Part shown: piece by piece, positions 20,025 through 60,356 of the stretch | How the letters are laid out: every line of letters begins with the position of its first letter | How positions within the stretch are numbered: the first letter of the stretch is position 1 | Assembly (NCBI RefSeq): GCF_010389155.1 | Contig: NC_057768.1 | Location: forward strand, 7,190,501 to 7,254,500 | Length of the DNA: 64,000 bases | Source of the DNA: Erigeron canadensis | Lineage: Eukaryota; Streptophyta; Magnoliopsida; Asterales; Asteraceae | Direction of reading: 5' to 3' | The notes under the pieces: generated by a model | The model's database searches: none | Told to the model about the DNA's origin: nothing | The model's input: the letters and a program-made list of their open reading frames with translations, nothing else | Position numbers and translations under genes: made by a program

Positions 20025-22665
20025 ATGTCAACTGATCGTACTCTCGTTTTGGGGAAATCCCTTTTGGCACTTTGTATTTTCATGCTTGTTCCGTTGCTTT
20101 CTCTTGAGGTTGACGCAGCTACCAAGAAATACCAATTCGACGTGAGTTTGTAGGTTAATATTTCGAGTACTAATTTTGTTTGGTGTCGAGTATTTTCAGC
20201 ATATTTCGGAAAATGACTGTGTTATATGTGTTTTTATGTAAAAAAGATTCAAGTGAAGAATGTTAGCAGATTGTGCCATTCAAAACCGATTGTCACCGTG
20301 AATGGTAGGTTTCCAGGTCCAACTGTCTATGCTCGAGAAGGCGATAGAGTTCTTATCAATGTCACGAATCATGCCCAATACAACATGTCCATTCACTGGT
20401 ACGATTTATTAGTAGTTGTCCATGTCTATTTTTACATTGTTATATACATAGATGCACGACAATAGGGCCCTGATGTTTAACAAGTTAGTACCATAAAATG
20501 TATTTCTTTGACATGTTTAGTTAATTAACTAATGTGTTAAACATAATCAAAAACTTATGTTTTATTAATATCCTAGTTAATTTCTGTATAGATAATTCAT
20601 GAGGTCACACAATATTGGGGCATTAGGCGACTTCTGACGCCGTTTCATATTTGTTTTAGTATCGTTTTTGTGAACATATTTATGGTTCTTGTGTTTTTTA
20701 GGCATGGGTTGAAACAGTATGCAAACGGGTGGGCTGATGGACCGGCTTATATCACACAATGCCCGATCATGCCTAAGAATAATTATGTTTATGACTTCAA
20801 TATCACGGGTCAAAGAGGGACGTTGTGGTGGCATGCTCATATCCTATGGCTCAGAGCAACTGTATACGGGGCTATCGTTATTTTACCCAAACCAGCAACT
20901 CCATTTCCCTTCCCACGGCCCGATGGAGAACAAGTTATTGTGTTTGGTAAGAAAACCATCCAAAACTTCCTAACTAAGTTTTTTTTTTTTTTAATAAAAG
21001 TTAACTTAAGTCGCGCTTATGAGATAAAACTATATGTTATATGCAGGTGAATGGTGGCATGCTGATGTTGAAGAGGTTGTGAAGCAAGGAAATGCTTTAG
21101 GCTTGCCTCCCAATATGTCTGATGCCCACACGATTAACGGGAAACCAGGCCCGTTGTTCCCATGTTCCGAGAAACGTATATCACTTGTTGTTTTGTTTTA
21201 CAAGTCATTCATATTTTCCAGATCAATCACTTGACCAAGTGACCTCATTTGTACATTTTTCACTCGTTACAGATACTTTTGCAATGGAAGTCGAGCAAGG
21301 AAAGAAATATCTTCTAAGGATCGTGAACGCTGCACTCAACGACGAGCTCTTTTTTGCTATTGCAGGGCATAACATGACAGTAGTAGAGATTGACGCGGTT
21401 TACACAAAACCTTTCACCACAAACGCGTTACTAATTGCCCCGGGACAAACAACTAATGTTATAGTTTCAGCTAACCAAGCTCCAGGGCGATACTTCATGG
21501 CGGTCCGGCCCTTCCAAGACGTTCCCATTCCTGTAGACAACAAAACCGCCACGGCTATTCTCCAATATAAATACATTCCAAACACTGTTGTCCCCAAACT
21601 CCCAAATCTTCCTTCACCAAATGATACTGAATTCGCGTTAAGCTATAACAAAAAACTTCTTAGCCTAAACACGGCGAACTTCCCTGCAAATGTACCATTA
21701 AAAGTTGACCGAAATTTGTTTTTCACAATCGGGTTAGGAAAGAGTGTTTGTCCAACATGTGTTAATGGTACTCGCCTTTCAGCATCCTTAAACAACATAA
21801 CATTTGTAATGCCACAAACCGCGCTTCTGCAGGCTCATTACAATGATGTGAAAGGAGTATTTAAAACCGATTTTCCTGATAAGCCTCCAAAGGCTTTTAA
21901 CTACACTGGTGCTCCATTAACTGCTAATCTTTTTACAGTTAAGGGAACACGATTGAGTAAAATAGCCTTCAATTCGACGGTTGAGTTGGTTATACAAGAT
22001 ACCAATTTGTTGAGCGTTGAATCGCACCCTTTTCATCTTCACGGGTTCAACTTTTTTGTTGTTGGAACAGGCATTGGTAACTTTGATCCTGCCAAGGATC
22101 CGGCCAAGTATAACTTGGTTGATCCTCCAGAGAGGAACACGGTTGGTGTTCCAACCGGTGGTTGGGCTGCCATTCGGTTTAGAGCAGATAATCCAGGTAA
22201 ATTTTACTACAAAACCAAATTGCGAAACCAAAAAAAAAAAAAAACAATTTCACCTGTGATATATATGGGTCAACCCAACCTACAGAACATGTTTTGTAAA
22301 ATTTTGTCACAGTATAACACATTAGTTATCTATGAAATTTTGAAAAACTAGACAAAATGTATATGGGCGAACCCAAGCTCCAGAACTTGTTTTGTCTCGT
22401 GACCGGCCAACCCATTTACGTGCGCAATGAGTGTCGTGGCTATGGATATGGGTTCCAAAGACTTGTATAGTAATTATATAGATGAAGATCATCATATGTT
22501 TTTAAGAACTTGCAACTAATTAATTCTCGTTTAGGTGTTTGGTTCTTTCATTGTCATTTGGAGTTGCATACCGGATGGGGATTAAAAACGGCATTTTTAG
22601 TTGAAGATGGGCCAGGAAAAGATCAAGTGGTTCGTCCTCCACCGAAAGATCTTCCGCGGTGCTGA
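20025..22665 (+). CDS. laccase (secreted multicopper oxidase), six exons
   Basis: Exons 20025-20141, 20247-20398, 20702-20946, 21047-21175, 21273-22196 and 22535-22665 all use GT-AG borders and join in frame to 1698 nt (565 aa), normal for plant laccases. Residues 1-31 form a signal peptide (hydrophobic [13 protein letters not shown]), so the protein is secreted to the cell wall. There it would oxidise monolignols or other phenols with O2. All four copper motifs are present: H89-W-H91-G, W-W-H134-A-H136, H466-P-F-H-L-H471-G and H528-C-H-L-E-L-H534. The residue ten after the T1 Cys is Leu, the usual axial position. Many N-x-S/T sites fit a glycoprotein. The first motif runs on as [19 protein letters not shown]. 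Which laccase subclass it belongs to would need a tree. Confidence 0.95.
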
Positions 22666-28561: not shown

Positions 28562-29458
28562 TCAAGAAGACATCATAGCAATGAAGCATACCAACAATAT
28601 AATTATCACCAACGCCCAAATCAAACACATCCAACAATGACATCTCTGCTTATCCTTTAACTGCTTAGCATAAAACAAACTGTCTGTTCCACCACTTACA
28701 AAGCTTCCGGCTTTTGCCACATTATCTTCAATATCATCCAATTTCTCCCCTTGTGTTTCCACCAAAACAGCCATATCAAGAAACACTTGATGAAGTTTAT
28801 TCAAACTTCTCTTTATATCCAACACAGCTTGATGCCTTTCTTTATTCTCCATAACCACATCTGTCTTCCCATCAGACACTTCAAACATTTTTCCATCTCC
28901 CGAAGCCATTGTTTCCATCATTTCCTCACTCGGATATTCCCCTGTTTCATTGTAATACCTTCTTTTAAGATACTCTTTGTGATCTGAAACTATCTTATCT
29001 CTTAACTCTTGAAAATTATTCATCATTTCTTTGAGTTTAACTTTAAGCCCATTTGTGACTGAAACCTGAGTTCTCCCCACAGCAGTGTTTTGTTTGTGTG
29101 TTGCAGAAGATTCTAGATATTCAAGACGCACACGAACAAAACTTGCCTTTCTCAGTACTGCAACCATATCAGATTCCATTCTGTCTCTTAACCCACGAAT
29201 AACTTTGGCACTGTGAGCAGATTTCGTCTCTTCATTTAAAGTTTGCAAATCAGAAAACAGACTAGTAATCTCTTCCATGGTGGATTTGATCGATTCAACT
29301 TCTTGGAAGAATTTAGAAAGATGAGTTTCATCTGATGGATTAATCTCAGGTTCTTGAATCCCCATCTCGAGATCTCTTTCTTCTGATTTGATGTCGAGTT
29401 GGGTTTGTTTCTTCAAATCCACATAAGTTAGAAACGATTTTGTCATTAGATCATTCAT
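28562..29458 (-). CDS. SYP112: SYP112-like syntaxin (Qa-SNARE, SYP11 group)
   Basis: An intron-less coding exon of 298 aa starting MNDLMTKSFLTYVDLKKQ, the conserved N-terminus of KNOLLE/SYP11 proteins; an upstream TTG would add seven residues, but the ATG at 29458 is the expected start. The N-terminal Habc bundle spans about residues 45-160. The linker has GRTQVSVTNGLKVKLKEMM and YYNETGEYPSEEMM. The SNARE motif is about residues 213-262 (RSLNKLHQVFLDMAVLVETQ) with the zero-layer Gln at 236. A single C-terminal anchor covers about residues 276-295, so it is tail-anchored. Qa-SNAREs of this group drive fusion at the plasma membrane or cell plate. The spacing ERHQAVLDIKRSLN and AGSFVSGGTDSLFYA favour SYP112 over KNOLLE; a tree would settle it. 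Confidence 0.88.
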   Translation of the reverse strand: MNDLMTKSFLTYVDLKKQTQLDIKSEERDLEMGIQEPEINPSDETHLSKFFQEVESIKSTMEEITSLFSDLQTLNEETKSAHSAKVIRGLRDRMESDMVAVLRKASFVRVRLEYLESSATHKQNTAVGRTQVSVTNGLKVKLKEMMNNFQELRDKIVSDHKEYLKRRYYNETGEYPSEEMMETMASGDGKMFEVSDGKTDVVMENKERHQAVLDIKRSLNKLHQVFLDMAVLVETQGEKLDDIEDNVAKAGSFVSGGTDSLFYAKQLKDKQRCHCWMCLIWALVIIILLVCFIAMMSS

Positions 29459-29486
29459 TTTGTTTGTAGATTCTGACAAAACTCAC

Positions 29487-30729
29487 CTGCAAATCCGACA
29501 CACACAATATGTCACACAAATTATATATCATTCAAGTATAAAGATGCAGATACTAAACGAAATTAAAGATAAAGTAAAGCAGACCATTCATTCCTTGAAA
29601 TACTTCGAAAAACCACAAAGACATAACATATATACATATACATATTAATATTTGAATAACAAACATTAAAAAAAACTCAGAAGAAGATAAAAAGGTGTGT
29701 AAATTTTCGAAAAATCCACCTGCAAAACCCAAAACCCAAACTCATACCAATACATAACATATATAGATACAATACAAATATTAACTAAAGATCAGAGAAA
29801 AAGTAGTGTAACTTTTAAAAAACCCCAGCTGCCTGCAAAATGTGAAATAAGCTATCAAACAAAATTCAAAGAAATTACGCAATTCTTGAAAAACCTAGCT
29901 CTTGCAAAATCTTTAGCCACAAATGCGTAACACATGTACATATAATATTTGAATGTATAGATACAATTATCAAACAAAATTCAAAGAGAAAGTAGTGTAA
30001 TTCTTGAAAACCCACAAATATATAACACACATATATATATATACAATAATCAAACAAAATTCAAAGGAAGTATGTAAATTTTGAAAATCCAGTTGCAAAA
30101 TCTTTAGCTACTAACACAAAACACATATACATATAATATTTGAATGTATAGATACAATTATAAAAATAAAAAAAATCAGAGAAAAAGTAGTTCAATTCTT
30201 GAAAACCCACAAAAATATGACACGTATACATATAATCAAACAAAATTCAACCAAAATATGTAAATTTTTTTGAAAACTCACTTTCAAAATCTTTAGCCGC
30301 AAATATATAACACATATATAGATATGATATTTGAATGCATAGATACAATTATCAAAAACCCACATATATATATAACACATATATACAATAATCAAACATA
30401 ATTCAAAGTAAGTATGTAAAATTTTGAAAACCCACTTTCAAAATGTTTAGCCATAGATACATAACAGCTATACATGTAATCTTTATATATATATATATAT
30501 ATACAACTATAAAACAAAAATCAGAGAAAAAGTGGTGTAATTCTTGAAAACCCACATAATATATGACAAATATATACAAGAATCAAACAAAATTTACAGA
30601 AAGTACTTGAATTTTGAAAACCCACTTGCAAAATCTTTAATTACAAATACAGAACACATATAGATATATAAATGTATAGATACAATTATCAACAAAATTC
30701 AGAAAAAAGTAGGATAAAAAAGTTGATAC
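29487..30729 (-). repeat. 5'-UTR intron of the syntaxin gene filled with about 190-bp tandem repeats
   Basis: On the minus strand a donor (CACAAAG|GTATCAAC at 30730/30729) and an acceptor (GATTTGCAG| at 29487, 29 nt before the ATG) define a leader intron of 1243 nt. Inside, units share CAAAATCTTTAGCC, ATAACACATATACATATAA, GAATGTATAGATACAATTAT and CAAACAAAATTCAAAG. The CAAAAT landmark falls at 29903, 30096, 30285, 30439 and 30629, a period of 189-193 bp with one shorter unit of 154; decayed copies extend down to about 29700. Each unit carries a TTTGCAAGTGGGTTTT-like word resembling the true acceptor. Intron status is inferred from splice signals. Confidence 0.75.
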
Positions 30730-30939: not shown

Positions 30940-33464
30940 TGAAATTGAAATTGGAAGTATGTTAGCCGTTGGATTTAATTAAATTTATTTTTGCGCGGAG
31001 TCGGTTACGAAAAACCCCCAATTCAAAATAATGATATTCATAAATAAATGTTTGGCAAAACGCTGGGTTAATAACGGGGTAATTTGGGTAAAGTTTTCTT
31101 TTTGATGCATATATATTTGGTAGATAGCTGAAAGTAATATAAATAATAAGCTTAAAATGACATGAATGGATAAAAATTATACATGTAACAATTTAAGTTT
31201 TGCATAATTACAGTAGTTTTTTTGATATTTTTTATTTTAACCTATAACTTTTTAAATTTTTTACTTTTGTTACACTCATTTTAGGGGAAGTGATAATCAT
31301 ACCACATATTTTAATTCATTTACCACATTGTATATATTTTATAACATATTGTACAAGTATGCAATGCTCAACAATGGTAAATTTATCAAATTATGAGGTA
31401 CGAATATCACTTACCTTCATCATATTTGATATTTACTTTTACTTTTGACTTTTTAATTTTTAGTTTTTTACCATTTACCTTTCAATTTTTTAGCTTTACC
31501 ATACACTTTAATTTTCTTTAATTTTTGTCCGATACTACAATGATTACTTAACTCTATCACAAATGTTTTCAGGCTAAAAAAATCGATTGTCGCCGTCAAC
31601 AACACACATCCACCTTTTTCGAAATCCAAAACATATTATACAACGGCAGTCAACGACAAAGAGTTAGTTGTGGCGGATGATAATTCTGATTTGTTTATTT
31701 GCTATTTACACACCAAGTTTACTTATACGATGTTCATTATTTGCTAGCATGTGAAGACCCGCAGCAAAGTGCGGGCAAGATACTTATTGATAATTTATAA
31801 TGGAATTAGTTAGGAGTTTTCTGAACTAAATAGGAGTATTATGTAATTTTAGATTAAGATTTTTTATTTGAGTGTTTGCAAAAATGTGATTTTGAGGTTT
31901 ACTTTTTTTTGGAAGACTTTTCTTCCCTCAATTTTTAATTTTTCAAAAGTGAATATATGATATGTATTGATGATGAATTTGATGATAGTTATACCATACA
32001 CAATAAGCTATTAAAATTTAAAGGTTCACTTTAAACTGTGAGCATTTTTTTTTCTAATTAAACTAAATGTAAATAACCTTTAAAAAATTGTCGATCCAAA
32101 ATTTTTGTTTTTATTTTCCTTGTCTCCTTGGAACCAATTATTTTAATAAAATAATAATAGTGTGTTTAGTTGTAAAAAATATATTTTAATTTTTCATTTA
32201 AAATTTCAAGAAAATAAAAAGAGTTTTTCATTTAGAGGGAAACAAATAAAATTTTTTAAAACACATTCAAAAGTTAAAAATTATATTTTTATTTTTTATA
32301 AGTGGGTTGGGGCTAGGGATGAGGGTAGGAGGTAAAGGGGGCGGGGGCGAGGGTGACGGGAGGCAAGGTGGGATAAGACGTAGGAAAAAAGTTAATTTCT
32401 AAAATTCAAAATTTGAAAAATTAAAATTTTAAAAAACTGACTTCTAATTGATATTGAAAAATGAAAAAACAATATTTCATGTTATTTTCTTTTTTTAAAA
32501 AAAATTTAAAAACTAATTACGTTTTCTGCATTATTTTTTGTTTTCTTATAAATCAAAAATGAAAAAGAAAAAGAGTATTTTCTCCAACTAATCTCGTTTT
32601 GATATTGGATAGTATTCCTTTTCAAAATATGCATCACTAAGATGGCTACAAGTGATTTGAAGTACTACTTCTCACTAGTCTTTCGAGGGTGGGTAGGAAA
32701 GAATTCGGAAACGGCGACCGTTCTTATCTCAACTCCCTCCCTAATAAAGCAACCCCCCCCCCCTAAATATTTCTGTCTTTGAAATACCTTATTTGCCCTT
32801 AGACATTTTTGTTTTTTTTCTCTTTACGTAACTACCCAAAATCCCTAATAAAACAAACCATCTTCCCTATTACTGCTGTCGCATTACGTGGGTACCATGC
32901 TCGTAGTTAATTAATCGCATATGCCTAGGAAAAAGAACTTACTACTTCCGTAGCAATTCATGCAATTGAATGAATAGTCGTCCAAAACCACAATAACATC
33001 AAAACTATTTACTACGAGTATAAATCTACAATAATCCCTTTCACAAATCACAACAAGCCATTTTACTGCTTCCGTAGCAATTGATGCAATTGATATGTAG
33101 AGTATTTATAAAATTTGCCACCAGTTATTATATATAGTGGTTTTAAATAAAATAAGGGTTAACCACTATGCATCATAAAAATCATCGTACATCAAGTATT
33201 AATGTAAAACAAGTATTTATTTAAAACAAGTATTTATAAAAATCATCGTACACCGTGATATGTAAAGTATTTATAAAAACAAGTAATAATGTAAAACAAA
33301 TAAAATAATAGGTTTTTCTACATAGATCACCACCGTGCATCATAAAAATCATCGTACATCAATTGTTTTGTGAATCTCTGTGCATCAATTTAACCATTAT
33401 TTAAGGGTTAAGATGTTGTCTTATTTGTTTTGCTTTAATACTTGTTTTACAATATTCAACCCGT
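30940..33464. other. AT-rich intergenic DNA with Helitron-like ends and short repeats
   Basis: No gene seen. At 31744-31780 the minus strand reads GCCCGCACTTTGCTGCGGG followed by CATGCTAG, a good match to a Helitron 3' hairpin plus CTAG, although its start was not found. A 13-base C run lies near 32751-32763. CTTCCGTAGCAATT...GATGCAATTG occurs twice (about 32945 and 33068). CACCGTGCATCATAAAAATC (33330) has a related copy near 62231. GGGGCGGGGGCGAGGG-type G-rich DNA lies at 32336-32375. Confidence 0.5.
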
Positions 33465-33643
33465 AGTACATATATAATACTCATAATACATAATACATTA
33501 CATAAGAAATGGCAGAAATACAAAGGTTACAAGGAAGGAAGTTCACACACATATGTCTCATTGCGACATTTTATGCTGATAATACAAAGTTGACCAATTA
33601 AGTCATATATAATTAAAATCGCATTGTGAGGTCACTTGATCAA

Positions 33644-34780
33644 TCACATTTTATGGTACCAGTAGGTACCCTTGTGCTCGCTATCTTCATCTGGCTCGAT
33701 ATAGATACATTCCTTGGCCTCTCTATACATTGCTTTAAAGATTGGAGTCCTATCGATCTTATAAAACTCACCCAATATTGGCTTGATTGCATCTCTTGCC
33801 TCCTTTGCATGATAATGTGGAATGTACGAGATCAAATGATGCAATACGTGAGTGTGTGTAACGTCGTGAAACACCCTATTTAGGAACCCAAAGTCCCTAT
33901 CGATTGTTGACAAAGCCCCTCGGATCCAGTTCCATTCGGTTGAATCATAATGAGGTAATGAAAGATGGGTGTGGTGCAAATATGTAATCAAAACGAAAAA
34001 AATGTGCACCCCTAACACCGGAATTAAATACATAGACGTTACCCAAGCAACTCCTTTTGCCGCGACAAGAAGCTTGATCACGTAGAAAACACCAAGGAGA
34101 CCAATATCGGATAAAACAACCTGAATCCTTTCACGGTCTGTGAAAATGGGACTCAATGGATCAAAGTGGTTGGCAAACCTTCCGTATTTCTTGCCAGAAA
34201 TATTAGTTAAGAGGTATAAAGGAAATCCTAGGGTCAACCTAAAAACCAAAGTGAACACACGACCCGGTGGGTTGTTAAGAAGTTTTGAGTAAATTCTGAC
34301 TTTGGACTTGCGTTTAGGAATGTAAACTTCGTCGTTATCAAGTGAATTTGTGTTGGCATGGTGATTTCGATGGCTGTACTTCCAAGAGAAGTAAGGGGTG
34401 AAAAGGAAAGAATGGAGGACGAATCCAACAAGGTCATCAATCCATTGGTGTTCGCTAAAGGCATGGTGACCACATTCGTGACCAATGACCCATAACCCGG
34501 TTAGGATGCTAGCTTGGCAAAACCAGTAAACCGGCCATGCCAAGTAAGATAGAGGGGCATCTAGAAGAGGAATATAGGTGTTGGCAAGGTAGTAAAACAC
34601 ATAGGCAATAATGAGATCATGAACAACATAGTAAGATGATCGAATAACAGAACGCTCAAAGCAATGGGCCGGGATTGCTTTCTTTAGATCACTTAACGTG
34701 AAAGGCGGATCAATTGGCACACGTTCAAGGATGTTTTTGCCCTCATTCGATTGGTCCGACATTCGACCACCTGCACCCAT
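33644..34780 (-). CDS. FAD2-like delta-12 fatty acid acetylenase/desaturase, copy A
   Basis: A single-exon ORF of 378 aa starting MGAGGRM, an integral ER-membrane di-iron enzyme of the plant FAD2 family. The three histidine boxes are H101-ECGHH, H137-RNHH and H311-VLHH. Four or more hydrophobic segments (about 52-72, 80-100, 178-192, 225-265) fit the family fold. The second box, HRNHHANT instead of the HRRHHSNT of ordinary oleate desaturases, and the block DVTHTHVLHHLISYIPHYHA are the form I associate with divergent Asteraceae FAD2 enzymes (acetylenase/epoxygenase class), so it may form a triple bond or other modification at C12 of linoleate. The C-terminus YWYHKM is an aromatic ER-retention type. 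It is divergently oriented to copy B. Exact reaction cannot be read from sequence. Confidence 0.93.
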   Translation of the reverse strand: MGAGGRMSDQSNEGKNILERVPIDPPFTLSDLKKAIPAHCFERSVIRSSYYVVHDLIIAYVFYYLANTYIPLLDAPLSYLAWPVYWFCQASILTGLWVIGHECGHHAFSEHQWIDDLVGFVLHSFLFTPYFSWKYSHRNHHANTNSLDNDEVYIPKRKSKVRIYSKLLNNPPGRVFTLVFRLTLGFPLYLLTNISGKKYGRFANHFDPLSPIFTDRERIQVVLSDIGLLGVFYVIKLLVAAKGVAWVTSMYLIPVLGVHIFFVLITYLHHTHLSLPHYDSTEWNWIRGALSTIDRDFGFLNRVFHDVTHTHVLHHLISYIPHYHAKEARDAIKPILGEFYKIDRTPIFKAMYREAKECIYIEPDEDSEHKGTYWYHKM

Positions 34781-34960
34781 GGTGTTTGATATCTGATTAA
34801 CCTAGCTAGCTAGCTCCCTTCAAATATATATATATATTAATGTTAATTAAAGTATACAATTAAGAACTTAAAGCTCAAAGAAGCTACTAAAAAAGACTTC
34901 AGCTATAGAGAAGTAGTTTGAATTCTCTTGAGCTGGTGATTGTTTCTAAAGTTCCTTATG

Positions 34961-34972
34961 CTATATATATAC
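34961..34972 (-). promoter_or_regulatory. TATA box of FAD2-like copy A
   Basis: The minus strand reads GTATATATATAGCATAAGG about 185 bp upstream of the ATG; the same TATATATAGCATAAGGAAC block is kept in copy B, supporting it as the core promoter. Confidence 0.6.
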
Positions 34973-35255
34973 ATACACTTAATCATTGATCAGTTTTCAA
35001 CAAGCTTGACTAATTTAATCTCCAACTACTATTGTTCTGTTTTGTTACAAAGTTTATTTATTTATTTATTATACTAAGCTGTAAGCCTAAGTGGCTAAGA
35101 GAATTTCTAGCTTCCACATTAAAAGATATGAAGAAAAGAACAAAGGTGTAGATATATAAACTTGGGGATTTTAAATCTTTGGAGACTAAACTTTTTTGTC
35201 CACTTGTACTACTGATCAATGAGTTTTGGGGTGTAGTCTAGGATGAACAAGTTAT

Positions 35256-36359
35256 ATGGAGTAATATATACTCATAGATATATATGAATGAATGGTCTCT
35301 GATAATAGATATTCGTAAGCTAAAAAGATTGTAATTTTTTTCGAACATTCAGTCTAAATGTGACTTCGGGAAAACCTCACCGTATAATGGTGAAGCTTTG
35401 CACGTACCCAAGATAACGAGATGTTGACCATGGGCCGTTACAGGTATTCGGAGGAAAAAACCCCAAGATTTGCCATCCCTAAGGATCGAACTCAAGACTT
35501 TGGGTAAAACCTGAGATAACTCTGACCAGTTAGACTAATCATCATTGGCTAAAAAGATTGTATTAAAATAAATTATCACTAGTTTTAAAAACATAGAGTA
35601 AGTAACAAAAACTCGTTAGTTCTGTGTAAAGAAACAAAAAAATGGTAGTTCCTTCATTTTTGAATGTATTTGATATTATTGATAAATGAATAAATAATAA
35701 AAAGGTAAGGAGTTGATTATACATTATTTAATTTATCTAAAAAGGAAAAAAAAAAAAACAAACTCTTGTTGGTTAAGAAAAAAATTTGCATGCATTATGT
35801 ACGTTGGACCAGAATCTAGCTAGCCATCAAGATGGAATTTTTTAATCTGTTATTGCATTATTTCAATTTGTTATCAAGTATGTTCCTTCGATATATTACC
35901 CTGCATTATACATGTTTGTCACGTTTCTTTTTAATCTAAACTAAAAGCCTATACAACATATATATAATTATTGGTGAAAAGAGTTACACTATTAGTTTTG
36001 TTGATTTTGTTTTGTTGATGAAAATGAAGGTTTTCTGTAATAAATACACAAGGAAAAAGTCATAAAATCTATTATATGCTCCGTATTTTGTAATGGGGGA
36101 AGACCGGAGTCAACATGAGATGTCCTCCAAGTTAAAATGGGAAACAATAGGAAACACGTCACAGTTTTTTTTTAATTATAAAATTCATGAAGCTCATTTA
36201 AAATTAAAAAAATATTAAAATATATGAATATGAGGGGTTCTTCATATAAGTTTAGATAAAAAACAACCTCATATTCATCACTTTTCTTCCTTTTGTAATA
36301 TGTGAATCATAAACGTCACAAAAATAGAGAAACAAGGGTGGAAAGTTATAGGCCACCAT
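35256..36359. other. outer part of the spacer between the FAD2-like genes
   Basis: AT-rich DNA with the SINE at 35334-35547. No gene seen. Any shared regulatory region for the two divergent genes would lie in the inverted arms, not here. Confidence 0.5.
35334..35547 (-). mobile_element. tRNA-derived SINE, minus strand, with 15-bp target duplication
   Basis: GCTAAAAAGATTGTA occurs at 35319-35333 and 35548-35562. The minus-strand body starts near the right end with an A-box-like TCTAACTGGTCAGAGTT, has a B box GTCTTGAGTTCGATCC (35483-35498), and ends in an A-rich tail, seen as ATTTTTTTC at 35334. This is a complete SINE. Confidence 0.88.
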
Positions 36360-36827
36360 TAGAAATGACAATGGGTCAAGTTCGGGAAGAGTAGTGTCAA
36401 ACCTGAACATGTTAAGGAATATGCGACCCAATACCCATTGGGGAATCTTATCGGGATCCCATCAGGGATAAAACTATGCCCAAAACCTGAAACCCGACCC
36501 GATAAGGATTTTTATTTTTCAAGAATATAACCAACATTTGTATGATTTAATTAAGAATACTACTTGCTCTTGATCCTTTGAGGAATGGATGTGCGAGTTG
36601 TGGAATATAGATACAAAATTAGTTGATGTTATTGTGGAACTTTGAATATATAGAGATTAAATATATATACATTCAAAACTAATCACTTATAAGTATATAG
36701 ATATAGGTATTGATATCGGGTCGTGTCGGAGTAGACATACCCCAGTCCCTGTCACAAACGGATTCGGATATCGGGTATTCTCATCGAGTATCGTGTCCCG
36801 TCGGGTTGGGTTTTTTTTCCATCCCTA
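36360..36827. mobile_element. hAT-type non-autonomous element (468 bp)
   Basis: The left end is TAGAAATGACAATGGGTCAA. The right end read in reverse is TAGGGATGGAAAAAAAACCC. CCCGACCCGATA and TATCGGGTCGTG lie near the ends. The flanking 8 bp are GCCACCAT and GCCAACAT (7 of 8 match). The interior is AT-rich and non-coding. Confidence 0.75.
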
Positions 36828-36835
36828 GCCAACAT

Positions 36836-37717
36836 TTAACATACACAATGCTTCATTTTGAACAAGAAATTCCGTTATAGATAAGGTTTTTGACAGGTAA
36901 AACATATATTATTTGTCTAGAGCGAGCACTTTCTTCAAGTTTCAACAGAAAATGATCCGAACTAGCGGCGTTAAGATCTAGATATTCAATAGGATTGCGC
37001 CATTGCACATACATGCTCAAACTATTGTGCATTCCACATTCTTCAACTCGTGGTTGAACACTTGAACTTAACTTCAATAATTTATTTCTTCTCTCAAAGT
37101 AAATTATAAGCAAAGTAAATATCCGATGACAATACAGTCAGTTACAACATCAAGTGTGTTAATTGAGCTTAGGGTATCTTTTCCAATCCTAAAATTTACC
37201 CAAAAACTACATAAATCTAAAAGATTAAATCACCTACGAGGTGGACTCCTAGTGGTTAACATACTAACATACTAAGATAATAAGATTTTAACAAGAAGTT
37301 TAGCTCAAATTAATATGAACCCACTAGCCCGCTAGGTATTGTTATAGGGATAACGATGAAAGGGTTTGGAAACAGCCGGGAGATAGCCCTGTTAGACCGT
37401 TTACATTTTAATCAAAATTGTTTTCCCTAGATAACTTTGAATAGATAAAATCTGATCATTTGTTTATTGTTGACAAATATGTAAAGATTATGTTGAACTA
37501 CTTCCCTCTTTGACAGCTATAGTTTTTATTATTTAGAATAGCATTCATATATATCTATGCATATTATTCACAAAGTTGGAAATCTTGACCATTAGATTAA
37601 AATCAACAGTCAAAATTAAAATATAAGTTCTTAATCTTAACCTTTAATTTTAATCCAACGATAAAATGTCTACAATTTTACTAGTAAAGTTGGAACTAAG
37701 TTTAGATGATCTTATCA
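36836..37717. other. inner part of the spacer between the FAD2-like genes
   Basis: The minus-strand open frame 36853-37113 (86 codons) has non-random composition, with VQPRVEECGMHN and YLDLNAASSDHFL, but I cannot assign it and there is no start or splice context; it may be an exon remnant. The rest is AT-rich and featureless. Confidence 0.35.
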
Positions 37718-37991
37718 ACTTGTTCATCCTAGAGAACACCCCCACAACTCATTGATTAGTAGTACAAATGAAGCAAGCTAGACTTTAGTCTCCAAAACTT
37801 TAAAAGCCCCAAGTTTATATTTTTACACGTTTATTTTTTTCTTCATATCTTTTAAGGTGGAAGCTAGAAATTCTCTTAGCCACTTGGACTTACTATATGA
37901 AATAAATAAATAAACTTTGTAACAAAACAGAATAATGGTAGTTGGGGATTAAATTATTCAAGATTGTTGGAAACTCAATGATTAAATGCAT

Positions 37992-38003
37992 GTATATATA
38001 TAG
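37992..38003 (+). promoter_or_regulatory. TATA box of FAD2-like copy B
   Basis: TGTATATATATAGCATAAGG about 160 bp upstream of the ATG, followed by the shared leader words CAATCACCAGCTCAAGAGAA and CTTCTCTATAGCTGAAG that are also present in copy A. Confidence 0.6.
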
Positions 38004-38160
38004 CATAAGGAACTTTAGAAGCAATCACCAGCTCAAGAGAACTAAAACTACTTCTCTATAGCTGAAGTATTTCTTTCTTCTTTAAGTTCTTGTATACCTC
38101 AAATTTTATTTTGATATATATTTAGAGGGAGCTAGGTTAGTTAACTAGATATCAAACACC

Positions 38161-39297
38161 ATGGGTGCAGGTGGTCGAATGTCGGACCAATCGAATGAGG
38201 GCAAAAACATCCTTGAACGTGTGCCAGTTGATCCGCCTTTCACGTTAAGTGATCTAAAGAAAGCAATCCCGGCCCATTGCTTTGAGCGTTCTGTTATTCG
38301 ATCATCTTACTATGTTGTTCATGATCTCATTATTGCCTATGTGTTTTACTACCTTGCCAACACCTATATTCCTCTTCTAGATGCCCCTCTATCTTACTTG
38401 GCATGGCCGGTTTACTGGTTTTGCCAAGCTAGCATCCTAACCGGGTTATGGGTCATTGGTCACGAATGTGGTCACCATGCCTTTAGCGAACACCAATGGA
38501 TTGATGACCTTGTTGGATTCGTCCTCCATTCTTTCCTTTTTACCCCTTACTTCTCTTGGAAGTACAGCCATCGAAATCACCATGCCAACACAAATTCACT
38601 TGATAACGACGAAGTTTACATTCCTAAACGCAAGTCCAAAGTCAGAATTTACTCAAAACTTCTTAACAACCCACCGGGTCGTGTGTTCACTTTGGTTTTT
38701 AGGTTGACCCTAGGATTTCCTTTATACCTCTTAACTAATATTTCTGGCAAGAAATACGGAAGGTTTGCCAACCACTTTGATCCATTGAGTCCCATTTTCA
38801 CAGACCGTGAAAGGATTCAGGTTGTTTTATCCGATATTGGTCTCCTTGGTGTTTTCTACGTGATCAAGCTTCTTGTCGCGGCAAAAGGAGTTGCTTGGGT
38901 AACGTCTATGTATTTAATTCCGGTGTTAGGGGTGCACATTTTTTTCGTTTTGATTACATATTTGCACCACACCCATCTTTCATTACCTCATTATGATTCA
39001 ACCGAATGGAACTGGATCCGAGGGGCTTTGTCAACAATCGATAGGGACTTTGGGTTCCTAAATAGGGTGTTTCACGACGTTACACACACTCACGTATTGC
39101 ATCATTTGATCTCGTACATTCCACATTATCATGCAAAGGAGGCAAGAGATGCAATCAAGCCAATATTGGGCGAGTTTTATAAGATCGACAGGACTCCAAT
39201 CTTTAAAGCAATGTACAGAGAAGCCAAGGAATGCATCTATATCGAGCCAGATGAAGATAGCGAGCACAAGGGTACCTACTGGTATCATAAAATGTGA
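38161..39297 (+). CDS. FAD2-like delta-12 fatty acid acetylenase/desaturase, copy B
   Basis: A 378-aa single-exon ORF identical to copy A except Val for Ile at residue 23; all three histidine boxes (101-106, 137-141, 311-315) are the same. By hand alignment the two ORFs differ at CDS positions 67, 381, 1011, 1029, 1056, 1062, 1074 and 1125 only; seven of the eight are silent. The gene is transcribed away from copy A. The promoter and leader differ from copy A by indels, so expression could differ even though the enzymes should be equivalent. Function as discussed for copy A: membrane-bound acyl-lipid modification at C12, likely acetylenase-type in Asteraceae polyacetylene metabolism by inference. 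Confidence 0.93.
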   Translation: MGAGGRMSDQSNEGKNILERVPVDPPFTLSDLKKAIPAHCFERSVIRSSYYVVHDLIIAYVFYYLANTYIPLLDAPLSYLAWPVYWFCQASILTGLWVIGHECGHHAFSEHQWIDDLVGFVLHSFLFTPYFSWKYSHRNHHANTNSLDNDEVYIPKRKSKVRIYSKLLNNPPGRVFTLVFRLTLGFPLYLLTNISGKKYGRFANHFDPLSPIFTDRERIQVVLSDIGLLGVFYVIKLLVAAKGVAWVTSMYLIPVLGVHIFFVLITYLHHTHLSLPHYDSTEWNWIRGALSTIDRDFGFLNRVFHDVTHTHVLHHLISYIPHYHAKEARDAIKPILGEFYKIDRTPIFKAMYREAKECIYIEPDEDSEHKGTYWYHKM

Positions 39298-39460
39298 TCA
39301 AGCCAATGACCTCAATGTGATTCTATGGCTTAATTAATTAGTCAACTTTGTATCAATCAACATAAAATGTCGTAATGAGACATGTGTGAACTTCCTTACT
39401 TGTAATCTTAGTAGTCCTGCCATTTCTTATGTTATGTACTATGTACGGAGTAATATCTAT

Positions 39461-40721
39461 AATATGTGGTGGCAAATTATGAAGTACATCAACATGAAGT
39501 GTACTTCAGTTATTATGCTAGGAAACTTTTATTACAATAAAATGTAGTTATATTCTGGAAATAATTACGGCAACTTGAAAATTCTTGTAAGCCCCTTCAA
39601 AGATAACTGCATGCTTTTAGTCCTTTTGGGGATGGGTCTGCGCGGAGGTAGCGTTTTGTACGAAAAGTTGATAGTGAAATTCACCTTGGATTGGATGAGT
39701 ATGGGTATGGGATACATTAGATATATTTTTTTTTTCATTGTTCCCGGATATTTTTTGGGTAATCTGTGGTCCAGCCCAAGTTTTATCAGTTTATAGCGCG
39801 ATCGGGCTTTTTCCAGTCTGGTGTAGTGGGTTACACGGGTCGACTTGCATTTTGATCACCCCTAATTGGTAACATAACATGTAACCTTGCAACACGAACG
39901 GTAAACAAGGTGGGAAAAGTCTTGAACAATGCTATATTACACCATAGCTTGAGAGTCATATAGAGATGAAATGATCCATAAGTTCATTTATATATGATCA
40001 AAACAAAGTCAAGATCAAGGGTTGGAATATGATCAAGACAAAGTCAAGATCAAAGATCGAAAGAAGATATATTTCCATCGATCCAACAATTATCCCTATT
40101 TCATATAGGCTCGATCAAGAATTGCCACGCCTAAGACGTTTGCGAATTGGAAGAGTTGGGTTCAAAAACCCGATTCTGGAATATATAGCCAAGTCTTTCT
40201 ATTAGTAATGCAAGTTCCCCTTTTGAAAGTAACATAAAGGTTTCTCATTTTTTTTCTCTTTATATTTCTCCGCATGTTTACTTACAAGAAGAAAGAGCAA
40301 GAATTGAAGCAAGTGTCGCAAGAAATGATCAAGAAGCAAGACCAAATAATTACCGGTATCAATAGAAAGTTTAACAAGAGCATGTTAGAAGTGGGTGAAG
40401 ACGTACAGTGTGGTTGATTCAAGTGATGAACAAAGGGGAGCAGTTTTTACGCTGTGTTTGGATTGAAAGAGACTAACCATAGGTGCATGAAAAACGAGCG
40501 GAGTAGGAAACAAGGGAGGCGGTAGTGATCAAAGTTCCTTATGATCGCAAGATTGCTAACTTTGAAGGCCTCGGTATTAAAGGATCAAAAGGGTAGCAAG
40601 GACAAGCCATGGTTCTGGCCAAATGTGTGGGCTTGTTAACCCTATTGTTTTTCAAAGAACTTAGAAAGACGAGAGTATAAGTATAACAAATCAATGGGCT
40701 TGTTAACCCTATTGTTATACG
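39461..40721. other. intergenic DNA right of the FAD2-like pair
   Basis: No gene seen. CGACTTGCATTTTGATCACC followed by CCTA near 39841-39864 resembles one end of a hAT-type element whose other end was not found. GGGCTTGTTAACCCTATTGT occurs at about 40629 and again at 40696, just before the next hAT element. Confidence 0.45.
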
Positions 40722-41422: not shown

Positions 41423-42389
41423 TATACTAAACTGCCTCAAATATTAATATCATGCTAAGATTTAACCTTTGATCTCCTTAAGAGATATGGACGTGTTTGT
41501 TATTTTAACCATTAAGTGACTGAATTGATGAAATTACTGAATGAATAAATAATACGGAGTATATGTATAAATTAAGTCAATACAGTTATTTTTTGTCTAT
41601 TAAGTCAAAAAAACAAATATTTTTGATGACTTAATGAATTAAGTATTTTTGATTAAATGATGAGTTTTTTTATTAAGAGGTTAAATAAACACCACCATAG
41701 TCTATACCAAATGGGCTAATCCCAAATCAACATTAGTTTCTAATTATAAATCGTTTATGTGATTAGTCATTTTCTTACAAATTGTTGATCAATTGTCCCA
41801 TGAAAATTCTTGAGGCAGTTTTTGCTTCAAAGATCCTATATCTGCCTTAAAAGCTGTGTCAAATATTCTTAGATAATAAGATGTAGGATTTAAGAAGAAC
41901 TAATGAAAATGTGACGATGGTTCTCACCAGAGTATAAATATAACAAATTTGCTTCAAATTTTTTTAAAAGAAAAACCAATATGACAAACTAAAATGCTTT
42001 TATAGAGAAAATTTTTAATATAATATATACTGAATATAGAAGAAAAATATTAATAAAAAGCTGAAAAAAATATTTTTGTTAAAAAATCTACAAATCACAT
42101 AATTTACGATATTAGGGAACTAGTGAAAACGTGACGGATTTCACGGAGATAATTGGATAAGTAATGAAAAATAAACGAAATGATGAACTTTGATGCAAAA
42201 TGAGAGCTTATAGATATTTACCTACAATAAAAATGAGTAACGGTCCATTTCATTTTATATGTCCTAGTTTAACTTTTAAATTTTTATCTTCTGAACTTTG
42301 AACATAGTTATTTTTAGTTATGTTATATAATATTTGATATAAAATATATGAACGGATTAAGTTAATAATATATACTTTTTAATGATATA
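41423..42389. other. AT-rich intergenic DNA
   Basis: No gene or recognisable element seen. The bases TAATGATATA at 42380-42389 are the left flank of the foldback element. Confidence 0.5.
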
Positions 42390-43013
42390 GAGGAAAGTTA
42401 GTTTGAGAACCCTTAAAAAAAAAAGAACGCGAGAACCAATCCTGGCCATTGATTTTGATCTTGATGATATTTATTTTTCTCTCTCCTCATTTTCACCCAA
42501 TTCATTCAAATGGTTTTATCTCACAAACTGTACATCGTTAAACGAAAAAAAAAGCATGGGTAGTCTTAAAATTTCGTGCTCTTTCATTAGAGATGCGACT
42601 TGATATACTTTTGACAAACTTTTAAATTTTAATTTTTTTTTAATTTTTTTTTTAGCGATAATCCTACACATGTGCATGACATGTGTAGGGTATACATCAT
42701 ACATATCCTACACATGTGTAGGTATGGTATGTCCTACACATGTGCAGGTAAAAAGAAAATTCGAAAAAAAAAAAAAATTTCGAAATTTAAAAGTTTGTCA
42801 AAAGTATATCAAGTCGCATCTCTAATGAAAGAGGACGAAATTTTAAGACTACCCATGGTTTTTTTTTCGTCTAACGATGTACGGTTTGTGAGATAAAACG
42901 TTTTGAAAAATTTGGATGAAAGTGATGAGAGAGAAAAAAGGAGATGAGATGTATGGCCTAGATTGGTTCTCGCGTTCTTTTTTTTTTTGATGGTTCTCAA
43001 AATAGCCCACCCC
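42390..43013. mobile_element. foldback (long inverted repeat) element, probably Mutator-like
   Basis: Two arms of about 240 bp are inverted copies: the left arm has AAAGAACGCGAGAACC and the right arm GGTTCTCGCGTTCTTT, and both contain the AAGTCGCATCTCTAATGAAA/TTTCATTAGAGATGCGACTT block. Flanks TAATGATATA and TAATAATATA (9 of 10) could be a target duplication of Mutator size. The loop carries three short palindromes: CCTACACATGT...ACATGTGTAGG (42663-42689), CCTACACATGTGTAGG (42707-42722) and CCTACACATGTGCAGG (42733-42748). ORFs in the arms are shadows of the repeat. Confidence 0.75.
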
Positions 43014-43358
43014 TAATAATATAATATTAATCAACTATTATATAATAGATAAAAAAAATATTTATGGTAAAAAAAAATATTTATGGTCAAAATTAAAAAA
43101 GAAAAAACTTCCTTAGTTAAACTAAAAATTTAAATGGGGTCAGTATCATTTTTAAAACACATGGAAGATTTGTGATAACAACACAAAGAAAATAATTTAC
43201 TGGAAAGTTACACTAGCAAATCACAACTCGAGTCAACCAACTCAGTTTTCTTTTTACTTTCCCCTAAATTGTAGCTCCTCAAGACCGCCACAAGACTAGA
43301 AACCCTTTTTACCTCAATCAGCAAATCTAAGAAAAAACAAACAGGTGGGTTGTCGTAA

Positions 43359-54211: not shown

Positions 54212-56754
54212 TGTAACACCCATGAGTTTTGACCTCGTTGACTTCTTTGACTTTTGTTAACTATATTAGTTATTTGTAATATCAACACTATGAGAAGTTA
54301 TGTGATTAATAAATGGCGAGTTGATTTTATGTTCCTTAGCGTAATTGGTGATACGTTACTTTTACGTGTTTAGTCGGGATACCCGTAACTCCGTAAGGTT
54401 GTAACTAGCTAGTGTGTGGTACGTGGTGAGTATGTTTGTGTGCCAAAACCCCCTCTGCACCCATTCATTTTCGCTCTTCCATCTCTCTTTACTTTATTCC
54501 TTCCTCTCCTTCTCTCTAGTGCAAGAAAACACACACACAAACACAGTCTTCATATTTCTTCATAGTTTTCGGATCCAAGGCTTGTATTAACTTCAAAAGT
54601 TTTTGAAAGTATTTAATAATAATTCTTATCTTCCAAACTTCAAGATCTTTGGGTATAATCAAGTGTTCATCCTTTTTGAAGCTCCAAAACCAGATTTAAA
54701 GTTGTGGGTCGGATTGGTAAATGTTTTTTAGCTCAAAATGTCCCTTTTACATAGTAGCTTACTTCCTTGTTGTAGATATAAATGATTGGTGGCCGATTTA
54801 GGTGTAAAATGTGTGTTTTAGCTTAATAACGGGTTTTGAATCAAAGATTGAGATATTGGTAGTAGGTTTGTGAAATGTATGTTTTTATGGCTTTGTTATA
54901 CTAGTTTTTGGTTGTGTCAAAGTTTGATAACCAGATTCAAAGAACCGCTGAAGGAACCTCTTTCCGTTGTTAAAGCAAGTACGCTTTTCAAGAAAGCTAT
55001 GGAAGCTGCTAGCTACCTTCTTCCCATTCTTTAGTCACTCCAGTCACTAGCCCTGCCTTCGGCATCCCCCTCGTTGCGGTTAAGGTGACGCCTTCTAATC
55101 GAAATGGTCGATTTGGTGATTTTGGGTTTAGTTTCTTGTGTTGTCTTCCTGATTATGCCGCTCTTGATTTTACTTTATGCCCAACGTTTCTGTTTTACTC
55201 CTCCATTTACAACAAAATGCCTTTTTCTAGACCACTTTAAAGTACACAGGGTCCGACGTAAGTTACGGCAGTCCAGCGTAACATACGCCAGGCCCGATGT
55301 ATGTTACGATCCTTTAGTTTTTCAGGTTTCTCTCCTTTTGTCGTTCGGTTGATTATCGATCGTGGGGTATCTTGGCTTAGCCTAGGGTGTCGTGTAACAT
55401 AATGTAGGATACTCCGTGATGATATTGTTATTATAGTAGGTTGTGATCGTCGTGCTCATCGCTCACTCACTTAAGTTTATTTGCTTAACGTTCTTCAAAG
55501 CTAATGTGAGTTTCGTAGCCCCCATCCTTGATGACTTTGGGGTGAAAAATGTACTTTTTAATAAAACTAGTGTCTATATTCCTTGTGGTACAATGATCAC
55601 TACAAACAATGTTGCATTTGTTCACACTTTTAGTTAGCGTGAATAAATTAAATTTTGTCACGTTTTTATATGTGTAAAAATATGTAGAAATAAAAGTGTG
55701 TAAAACTAAAAGTTCACACTTTTTAGTATGAACTTTCATAATTATTTTATAACACCTCATTTGTCCACGGTAACTAAAAAGTTAGCGTGGACAAATGAGG
55801 TGTTACAAAATAATTATGAAAGTTTCACACTAAAAAGCGTGTACTTTTAATTCTACACACTTTTTAGTGTGGAGAAATTTATACACACTTTTATTTCTAT
55901 ATATTTTTACACACAAAAAAATGTGACAAAATTTTTAATTTGTTCACACTCACTAAAAGTGTGGCTAAATGCAATATTTTTTGTAGTGGATATAAGAACT
56001 AATTAAATTACTTAAGTATGTGTCCATGACACTCCTTTTCGTTAGTTGGATATTTTGAAGATGCTTGATGATTCCGCACGATTTAGTGTCCTCTGGGGAC
56101 TTGTGAGCTTGATTGTGTACACGTCGCCAATCGTGTGTCCAACGAGACTTGTAAGCTTGATGAACATTCACTATGGTAATTATAAGTAGTGATCTTGGTG
56201 TTTAATATATTTGTGTGTTGTGTATGATCTTGTGAAGCTATTGTAGTGATTCCATGTGCCTTACTATAAGAGCTTAGGGTATGTGATTTGATCAGCTCTC
56301 TCTTGTTATCGTACGACTTGTTATCGGCACATTTGATACTTGATACTTGATTTTGATGCTTAAATCTACGAGCTCATTGGTTTAGTATACTTTTCAGGTG
56401 ACCAAGTAAATGCTAAGAATTAGGGTTGATTGGAGGCTAGCTTGGATGGAATCGAGGAAGCGGCGCATCTTTTGTTAGATTATATCAAGAATATGCGCTT
56501 TCTTAATTAAACTTGATTCTCGAGGTCGATGACCTGAATGCTCCCTATATTGAGGGATGAATAATTGTTTTTTTTGTTTAAACGATTGTACTAGATGCAT
56601 GGATAGTTTGATATGATTGTATGATATTTGGTTTATGTATGCGTATTTCTTGGTGCACTTGAGCTAAGATTTTCATTTAGATTGGTTGCTTTATGTAATT
56701 TTCATGTGGTGCTTCTTTTTGATACCCCTAATTCCGTTTTATTGTGGTGTTACA
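54212..56754 (+). mobile_element. probable Ty3/gypsy (Tekay-type) solo LTR
   Basis: Inverted ends TGTAACACC and GGTGTTACA bound 2543 bp. The flanking pentamers ATTGA and ATTAA match at 4 of 5 positions. The CT-rich leader around 54470-54530 resembles an R region, and the TGTAACACCC start is common in chromovirus Tekay/Del LTRs. No internal retroelement domain lies on either side, so this looks like a solo LTR. A CACTA MITE (55598-55988) is inserted in it. Strand is uncertain because the ends are symmetric; it is inferred from the leader. Confidence 0.6.
55598..55988. mobile_element. CACTA-type foldback MITE nested in the solo LTR
   Basis: The ends are CACTACAAACAATGTTGCAT and, in reverse from the right, CACTACAAAAAATATTGCAT. 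A 3-bp target duplication GAT lies on both sides (55595-55597, 55989-55991). These are CACTA (En/Spm) marks. Almost the whole 391 bp is one palindrome whose centre lies near 55783 in TTTGTCCACGGTAAC...GTTAGCGTGGACAAA, so a transcript would form a long hairpin. Confidence 0.92.
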
Positions 56755-57614: not shown

Positions 57615-58166
57615 TGTTGGAGCATAGCCTTGTGACAACCGCATCCGAGAAATGTTGTCTTGATTATTTTTGTATATGTAATTAGTTAAACGTTTTATTT
57701 TATATGTAATAAGGTCATGAACGACCAAGTTTTTCATAATCGGTAACTAGAATGGTCTAGGATGATCTAGGATTGGTCTAGGTCGACCTTGGAGGTCTAG
57801 CTAGACCTCAATGGGCCAAAATATTCATGGATTCGTGTCTTGAGGTATAGGTTCGGTCCATATTAGATTAGTATAAATAGGAGATTAAACCTTATGCTTA
57901 AGGTTAATCTCTCTAGTTCGTGTTTCGGTATTTTGTGAGCTCGTGTGTTAATTGTAATCGTTATTACCGAATTAATACAAGGCTTCGTTATTTCATTCGT
58001 GTACTGTTCACTGTTCGTGTATTTGGTTTACCGAAAATTGTTGATTGCTAGTGTTCCTGTTCGTGTATTTGGTTTACCGAATATTGTTGATTGCTAGTGT
58101 TCGAGATATTCCGCACTCAAACATTAGTTATCTAATCTCGTAGATCCGGTGACTAAGGGACTAACA
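57615..58166 (+). repeat. 5' LTR of the non-autonomous copia element
   Basis: Starts TGTTGGAGCATAG, ends GGGACTAACA. A TATAAATAG box lies near 57871. It carries an internal 46-bp tandem unit (TTCGTGTATTTGGTTTACCG... twice near 58014-58105). By hand alignment it differs from the 3' LTR at six positions. Confidence 0.95.
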
Positions 58167-58167
58167 A

Positions 58168-58182
58168 TTGGTATCAAGAGCT
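58168..58182 (+). other. primer binding site (initiator Met tRNA type)
   Basis: TTGGTATCAAGAGCTT begins two bases after the LTR and matches the TGGTATCAGAGC sequence used by most plant LTR elements, with one extra A. Confidence 0.85.
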
Positions 58183-58375
58183 TTGGATCGTGTATTGGTT
58201 CGGGGTTAGAATTTCAACAATTGTGAGCCGCTCGTTCAAACTCAAGTTCGACCAAGGTCTAGCTCGACCAAGGGCTAGCTCGACCTTCTTGCCGATCAAG
58301 TAAGCTTCCTTTTGGTTCCTTGTCTTATAAAAACCAATCGACTCATTTGTAAGGATTTCGAAGGTTTGGTTTACA

Positions 58376-60265
58376 TTGTTGAAGACTAGAGATCAACCTA
58401 AGTTCGGTGAGAAAGTTGACGAGGGATACTTTATTGGTTATAAGTCTGATTCATCGATTAAGCGAGCCTGGAACAAAAGAGTTCGTGAGGTTCAATGGGT
58501 TTTCGATATTGTTGTTTCGAGTTATAAACCTGAAGGTCATGATGGACACGGGGCACTATTTGATTATGATGTTGTTTTTACCCTGTTTACTGTTTCTATG
58601 TCTGTGGATGCAGGTTCTTCAGGAATTGATCCAGAGTGTCTTTTGCAGAATGAAGATGATGGAGTTGTTCCAAGATCAAGCATACCAAGTTCAGTATCTA
58701 ATTCTTCGGGAACTGGATCTCCTCAGCCGGTACATGATGGTTCGTCCTCTAGTGGGACCTCTGGACCTTCTGATGATGATGGTTCTGAGTATCGACCGAC
58801 TTCTGCCGAACTTGCTGAACTTGATAAATCTTCTGGGAAAGTAATTGCAAAGTTGCGTGTCCGCAAACGGTCTAAAGCTACGGCTCGTCAGAATACTTTG
58901 GTGTATTTATCTCCTGTTACATCTGCTGTGGCTTCTACTGTGGTTTCTTCAATGTCGTTTTCTGATTCTGACACTACAACTTCTATGCATTCTCCGCTGA
59001 GGTCTTCTTTATTACCCAATGTTACTGAGATAACTAATGCTCAGCGTATTACTCAGCTTGAGACTAATGTTTCCGAGTTGTAGCTTGAAGTTACAGTCTT
59101 AAGGAATTTGGTCCAGAGATTGATCGCTGAGTTGTATACGAAAAAGGCATCTAGGGGGAGTGATGTGCCTACTCATTCTTGTAGAACTGATAATCCTCGT
59201 CGTGATGATGGAGACAATGATCCTAATGCACCTGGCAGTCGTGAGATGCCATTTTCTACAACATCTCAAGCTCAAGGTGTAGTAACATTTCAGGGGGAGT
59301 CTCATGCTTCTGAGAGTGCTCAAGATTCTAAAAATGGGCAGAATGCTGAAGCTGAAGAATTTGATAAGGTATCCACTTCTATGGATGATCTGTTAACGAT
59401 TTTCAATGATGAAAATCTTCCAAATGATCAAGAAGTTGATTTAGATCAAATCATTTCTAATGATGAGATCGTTGGTACTGAAGATGTTGAGACTGATGTT
59501 GTTGAAGTTGTCTATCAAAAAACTAAGCCTGTGAAGGCATATCAAGATTCTCTGATTAGAAAGGTACGAAAGAAAGTTTTTCGTGAAGGAATTTCTGATG
59601 AAGAAGAGTGTCATGAAAACAAAATTAAGAAAGCTTCTAAGATTCTCTACATAAGCAAAGTAAAAGATTCTTCTTTACCAAGCACAAATGGACGTATTTT
59701 GAGCTTGTTTTATGATCTAGAAATTCAAAAGTTTGCTATAAAGAGAACTTTAGGAGTCATGTATTTTCCTATAAGTAAGAAAGCATTGAGTACGTTGCCA
59801 AAAAGGGATTTTGTTGATATTACAAAAGTGCCTTTTTACAATTATGGCAATAGTCCACTTGCTAATCATTTTGTTGATTTGATGAAGAGGGAGGCAAGTG
59901 AAGGATATTATTGACATTTTCGTCCTCAGAAGGTTCAACTGTTGATTAAACCAAATGAAGTCGACCCGGTTACTAAGAAGCCGAAAGGACGAATGGTTTT
60001 TAATGAAATTGAATGTTTACAAGAAGTTCCGATGAAGAAATTTGAGCCGAATATTTTGATAAATATGAAGTTTTGGAGGATGGACGTCAAATCTTTTGAA
60101 GCTGTGGTTGAAGATGATAATTCAAATGAGCTTCTCAGAGTCTATGAGCCTCTTCATTTGGCTAATCTATGTAAGGAAGACCTTATGAAGTTAGATAATA
60201 CAAAGATGATGTCCATGGGATGTAGTCGAAGATTAGTTCAACAGTATCAACTAACGGTGAAATAG
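58376..60265 (+). pseudogene. unknown ORF of the non-autonomous copia element, two internal stops
   Basis: One frame runs about 630 codons from 58376 to TAG at 60263-60265 and is interrupted only by TAG 59081-59083 and TGA 59912-59914; no frameshift is needed. The first 35 residues are a copia integrase tail (PKFGEKVDEGYFIGYKSDSS, VREVQWVFD). Next comes a Ser/Asp/Gly-rich linker, a short heptad stretch around the first stop (ITQLETNVSEL), an acidic region, a basic patch (RKVRKKVFREG) and a globular-looking C-terminal part (IKRTLGVMYFPISKKALSTL, VPFYNYGNSPLANHFVDLM, LLRVYEPLHLANLCKEDLMK). The first codon is TTG, so the true start is uncertain. Function unknown. Confidence 0.6.
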
Positions 60266-60356
60266 TTGTTGAAAGATAAGATGTATGCTAAACATGTTTG
60301 AAGATTGTCGCTGCTGAAGATTCTAAAGACAACTGAAATTTCAAGATGCTGATGTC

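Follow-up and report, generated by a model that had tools for sequence, protein, structure and literature searches.

A pair of FAD2-like desaturase genes, copies A and B, lies head-to-head in inverted arms, and the silent divergence between the two copies falls into three zones: a core with almost none, reaching from just before the ATG to codon 336; a tail of 42 codons within the same reading frame, where it is high; and the flanks, where it is also substantial. This pattern is very probably due to an older inverted duplication followed by at least one recent gene-conversion tract of approximately 1 kb.

The gene pair and its inverted arms

The window, i.e., the whole 64-kb stretch of DNA that was analysed, carries the two genes with their ATGs 3.4 kb apart, each with 378 codons (Table 1). 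The preliminary description of this DNA had reported two head-to-head 378-aa FAD2-like genes with eight coding differences, and this count is exact to the base (8 of 1,137 positions). The differences are at CDS positions 67, 381, 1011, 1029, 1056, 1062, 1074 and 1125. The one at position 67 (A/G, giving Ile/Val) is the sole amino-acid change, and the other seven are synonymous. The identical runs along the CDS are 66, 313, 629, 17, 26, 5, 11, 50 and 12 bases long, reproducing both the 629-base run (CDS 382-1010) and the clustering of six of the eight differences at 1011-1125 noted earlier.

The arms occupy positions 33470-35253 (A) and 37717-39460 (B) and are 92.6% identical over 1,789 alignment columns, of which 82 are mismatches and 50 are gaps. 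A permissive comparison gave no strong arm-to-arm match continuing the homology inward; the stronger matches of the inner region come from small inverted repeats within the spacer. Beyond the arm limits, a more permissive comparison gave weak arm-to-arm matches only. One of these pairs 39454-39478, at the edge of arm B, with 33112-33136 (25 bases, 88%), which on arm A lies about 330 bases beyond the place expected from the arm B edge. The approximately 330 bases at the outer end of arm A (about 33137-33469), AT-rich by eye and missing at the corresponding place of arm B, suggest a repeat, with uncertain edges, whose insertion came later than the duplication. There is also a 76% match between 33277-33412 and 62180-62313.

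Both proteins exceed the cut-off of 29.7 bits for PF00487 (membrane fatty acid desaturase) and carry the histidine boxes HECGHH, HRNHH and HVLHH. A protein search gave 2,834 hits, and the nearest figures are taken from the 120 listed. Among these listed matches, Artemisia annua P0001 is 92% identical over 77% of the query, while A. annua P0002 (annotated as “plastid delta12-fatty acid acetylenase”) and Tanacetum cinerariifolium P0003 are both 91% identical over near full length. In alignment, identity is 77% to the Crepis alpina acetylenase, 76% to the Crepis palaestina epoxygenase, 74% to the Stokesia epoxygenase and 62% to tomato FAD2 (P0045). The named proteins in the first 26 listed matches belong to genera of the Asteraceae, for example Artemisia, Tanacetum, Ambrosia, Cichorium and Crepis, and the window thus probably comes from a plant of this family. 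Judged from its sequence, the predicted protein groups with the divergent FAD2 acetylenases and epoxygenases of the Asteraceae and not with housekeeping FAD2.

In divergent FAD2/acetylenase enzymes, the first His box is described as preceded by Gly, the second as having Asn at +3 and the third as preceded by (D/N)VX(H/N); in housekeeping or seed FAD2 oleate desaturases, Ala precedes the first box, the second reads HRRHH, and LFSTM follows the third (PMC3554562). Both proteins here have Gly, HRNHH and DVTH at the first three of these places and LISYI in place of LFSTM, whereas tomato FAD2 (P0045) has Ala, HRRHH and LFSTM. The Gly, HRNHH and DVTH are common to the predicted enzymes, the Crepis alpina acetylenase (A8CTT0, P0014) and the Crepis palaestina epoxygenase (O65771, P0017), while Tyr352 stands in the predicted enzymes instead of the Trp of the Crepis enzymes. 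Safflower CtFAD2-11 was likened to them by its published motifs (PMC3554562), not by alignment. As the C. palaestina epoxygenase shares all three acetylenase-type features, these are no proof of acetylenase activity, and the predicted enzymes may be acetylenases, which would make crepenynic acid from linoleate, or epoxygenases. The database label “plastid” appears doubtful because both proteins end in WYHKM, which is similar to the aromatic-rich motif at the C-terminus of FAD2 enzymes, although Trp replaces the Tyr of the form given for carrot (Y-X-X-K/R/D/E-L/F/M/I; PMC8889737).

Table 1. Positions of the two genes and of the zones compared between the arms (numbered along the window)
Feature	Positions	Strand	Basis or content
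Copy A, acetylenase-type FAD2 desaturase ORF (predicted), 378 aa	33644..34780	-	PF00487, 101.4 bits
Copy B, acetylenase-type FAD2 desaturase ORF (predicted), 378 aa	38161..39297	+	PF00487, 101.4 bits
Spacer separating the arms, not shared by them, 2,463 bases	35254..37716	.	arm-to-arm comparison
5' flank, arm A (promoter, leader, putative UTR intron)	34781..35253	-	440 aligned bases, 48 differences, 10 gap events
5' flank, arm B	37717..38160	+	A/B flank alignment
3' flank, arm A	33470..33643	-	162 aligned bases, 27 differences, 5 gap events
3' flank, arm B	39298..39460	+	A/B flank alignment
Putative 5' UTR intron, copy A, 105 bases, GT..AG	34793..34897	-	inferred from sequence
Putative 5' UTR intron, copy B, 82 bases, GT..AG	38067..38148	+	inferred from sequence
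Low-divergence (presumably homogenised) tract, copy A, -14 from ATG to CDS 1010, 2 differences (CDS 67, 381)	33771..34794	-	best low-divergence segment of scan
Low-divergence (presumably homogenised) tract, copy B	38147..39170	+	same scan segment and CDS differences
Diverged CDS tail A (CDS 1011-1137), six synonymous and zero amino-acid differences	33644..33770	-	CDS comparison
Diverged CDS tail B	39171..39297	+	CDS comparison

Silent divergence of core, tail and flanks

Only silent sites were compared in order to remove the effect of protein constraint. Codons 1-336 (the core) have one difference at 225.5 synonymous sites, codons 337-378 (the tail) have six at 20.3, and 75 of the 602 aligned bases of the flanks differ (12.5%), with 15 gap events in addition. 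Over the whole ORF there are seven silent differences at about 246 synonymous sites, compared to 30.6 expected if the ORF had diverged at the flank rate (P = 9e-8). This comparison of ORF with flanks had been proposed in the preliminary description, and its outcome is the one anticipated there for conversion; even divergence along the arms, which had been named as the observation that would speak against it, was not seen. Fisher tests gave P values of 4e-10 for core versus flank and 9e-7 for core versus tail, but the boundaries of core and tail were picked from the data for these tests, and the main test is therefore a scan with free boundaries, which corrects for their choice.

The scan maximises over segments, and its null, a uniform rate for all silent sites, was simulated 2,000 times. 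It returned one low segment, which starts 14 bases upstream of the ATG, ends at codon 336 and has a single difference at 239.5 sites versus 81 at 608.3 sites outside. The log-likelihood gain was 22.8, with a simulated maximum of 14.7, and none of the 2,000 simulations matched it. Within the CDS alone (200,000 draws), six of the seven silent differences fall in so short a span with P = 0.0003, and the longest gap between silent differences has P = 0.023. The limits of the tract are those of two sequences compared with no outgroup DNA, and they mark where differences start, not breakpoints.

The divergence of the flanks depends on the alignment, being 12.5%, or 7.3% when gaps are made cheap. With the gap-favouring alignment (42 of 575 flank bases differ), the core is still lower (P = 1.3e-5). 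At a substitution rate of 7e-9 per site per year, the ages would be about 10 My for the flanks, 0.3 My for the core and 27 My for the tail, to be read as relative only. Divergence is higher in the tail than in the flanks (6/20 versus 75/602, P = 0.035). The parts presumed not to be converted are thus not perfectly of one age, which could reflect chance, the class of site or a separate history.

Many substitutions and indels in the promoters, leaders and 3' UTRs had also been described, and this is true of both the 5' and the 3' flanks (Table 1), but not uniformly of the leader. From a TATA-like box to CTATAGCTGAA, there are only 3 differences in 76 bases (3.9%) and no indel; this stretch is less diverged than the rest of the flank, which counts as evidence against our reading. 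It is followed in both copies by a GT..AG stretch with six gap events, which contains the indels nearest to the ATG and stops 12 bases before it. As the 5' UTR introns reported for safflower FAD2 genes are located 11-38 bp before the ATG (PMC3554562), this stretch is probably a 5' UTR intron. The low-divergence tract starts at the last two bases of the putative intron. This may be chance, or intron indels may have stopped the exchange.

Probable gene conversion and competing explanations

In the core, silent divergence is far below that of its homologous surroundings on both sides. Near-identity in one block of homologous arms, with diverged sequence to either side of it, is what marks interlocus gene conversion. 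The strongest evidence comes from the diverged tail because it belongs to the same reading frame as the core, so that its 42 codons serve as a control, within the gene itself, for the case of a simple recent duplication. The sequence itself shows that an acetylenase-type FAD2 gene, together with approximately 445-475 bases upstream and 160-175 bases downstream, was duplicated in inverted, head-to-head orientation. We infer the following order of later events: the copies would have diverged for a long time, to about 12.5% at flank sites; a single non-crossover gene conversion, or several that adjoin each other, would then have transferred about 1,024 bases (14 before the ATG, and the CDS up to position 1010) between the arms, the template in break repair probably being the opposite arm on the same or the sister chromatid; and the two point differences at CDS 67 and 381 would have arisen in the tract after conversion.

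The preliminary description had preferred ongoing conversion across the ORF to a simple recent duplication. Conversion itself is supported by the comparisons of the core with the flanks and with its own last 42 codons. However, one recent tract is enough to account for the data, a single pair in a single genome gives no basis for claiming recurrence, and the tract stops at codon 336 rather than covering the ORF. In a palindrome kept by ongoing arm-to-arm conversion, the whole arms would be near-identical, while the arms here are about 12.5% diverged outside the core. It is improbable that the arrangement is maintained by recurrent conversion between the inverted arms, which would keep the enzyme identical while indels shield the promoters and 5' UTR introns and leave them free to diverge in expression. 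If it were so, the tract would end on its 5' side at a real barrier, and its closeness to the predicted intron-exon border (two bases or less) would not be chance.

The template might also have been another one, a third paralogue elsewhere that overwrote both copies or supplied the core of one of them. The FAD2 families of Asteraceae are large, with 26 genes reported in Artemisia sphaerocephala and 11 in safflower (PMC6839233), but there is no third copy of the gene within the 64-kb window, the two neighbours are the nearest known templates, and a source elsewhere seems unlikely. As for the tails, those of A and B encode identical residues, including Tyr352 (TAT in A, TAC in B), and for this reason both most likely descend from the duplication of this pair. 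Import of one tail from a distant paralogue is not favoured on the same grounds, although import from a third copy likewise carrying Tyr352 is possible. Site 352 is Trp in 24 of the 25 readable sequences among the 26 nearest relatives, the exception being P0023 (Mikania micrantha) and the unreadable one P0021; tomato FAD2 also has Tyr at this site. As the change from TGG to TAT or TAC needs two base changes, a small patch from a housekeeping FAD2 at codon 352 is conceivable.

Inverted near-identical arms are hard to assemble, and the pair could in principle be an artefact, either a false duplication of haplotypes or the result of consensus or polishing errors that copied the letters of one arm into the other. 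We consider this very unlikely. The outer flanks and the spacer are not homologous between the arms, unlike those of haplotig duplicates; and a core at flank divergence would have about 31 synonymous differences, or approximately one base in 37, which should suffice to place ordinary reads and to keep polishing from wiping out the difference.

A simple recent inverted duplication, with flanks that evolve much faster than a protein-constrained ORF, is extremely unlikely. The protein is indeed constrained, with one non-synonymous difference at about 888 sites, and the flanks are AT-rich and indel-prone by eye. However, divergence is still uneven when silent sites alone are compared: six differences fall on the roughly 20 synonymous sites of the last 42 codons, compared to one on the roughly 225 of codons 1-336. 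Fast flanks are unable to make a step inside the ORF, a recent duplication would leave low divergence everywhere, and purifying selection on the protein does not create such a step at synonymous sites. Selection at the nucleotide level, e.g., on an RNA element or a small-RNA target that keeps CDS 1-1010 identical, is scarcely credible, as it would have to constrain about 225 synonymous sites over 336 codons and end abruptly at codon 336.

Gene conversion via cDNA was also considered and fits poorly, the inferred intron being retained in both copies and the leader upstream of it having three differences. A hairpin RNA from the palindrome was set aside because the genes point outward.

Relation to known conversion cases and other features of the window

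A previous study of rice reported 377 conversions in 626 multigene families, with a mean length of 130 nt (range 4-1237), most common at separations below 5 kb and about equally frequent in reverse- and same-oriented pairs (150/1672 versus 227/2172, the second count being printed once as 277) (PMC2277409). As described for rice, the partners here are less than 5 kb apart, the paralogues are highly similar, and there is a stretch of reduced divergence; unlike the rice cases, the tract is, at about 1 kb, close to the upper end of the range, and detection was pairwise on silent sites here but by GENECONV on a family there (PMC2277409). The palindromes described on the willow W chromosome likewise have inverted arms around a short spacer, and high identity in limited stretches is ascribed there to arm-to-arm conversion, but their shared arms of about 20 kb lie in the sex-determining region, compared to about 1.8 kb here (PMC7023750). 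The RPP8 NLR family of Arabidopsis likewise shows intergenic exchange in a small set of paralogues, but the exchange was inferred from population data and involves a direct-repeat tandem and a distant locus (PMC6771003). The present pair fits the known plant conversion cases in kind, and its tract is long.

A search of titles and abstract starts for FAD2 or fatty acid desaturase together with gene conversion found no paper on conversion between Asteraceae FAD2 paralogues, which is not proof of absence. No new mechanism is added here, the process being an ordinary one. The pair is a clean two-sequence case, in which a homogenised core and an unconverted tail would share one ORF and so provide the internal control. 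If read as a clock, the silent divergence of the pair (7 at about 246 sites) would badly underestimate the age of the duplication. Such a bias in dating matters for the expansions of the Asteraceae FAD2/acetylenase families that have been linked to polyacetylenes.

Several other features were seen in the window. Laccase-like multicopper oxidase pieces are present at 20592-22351, with PF00394 and PF07731 in the ORF at 21101-22351 and a further piece at 20592-21050. AT-rich tandem repeats with periods of about 190 and 343 bases (29596-30710) adjoin a syntaxin-like ORF (28562-29482). Two self-complementary fold-backs, at 42265-43124 (about 860 bases, 74%) and 55598-55988 (about 390 bases, 75%), are perhaps MITE-like. 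A Copia-type retrotransposon integrase (rve and SH3_retrovirus) is found at 1780-2730. The direct repeats at 57615-58167 and 60374-60926 (553 bases, 98.9% alike) probably represent the two LTRs of a young, roughly 3.3-kb retrotransposon (57615-60926), and an ORF at 58331-59083 has a sub-threshold match to SH3_retrovirus.
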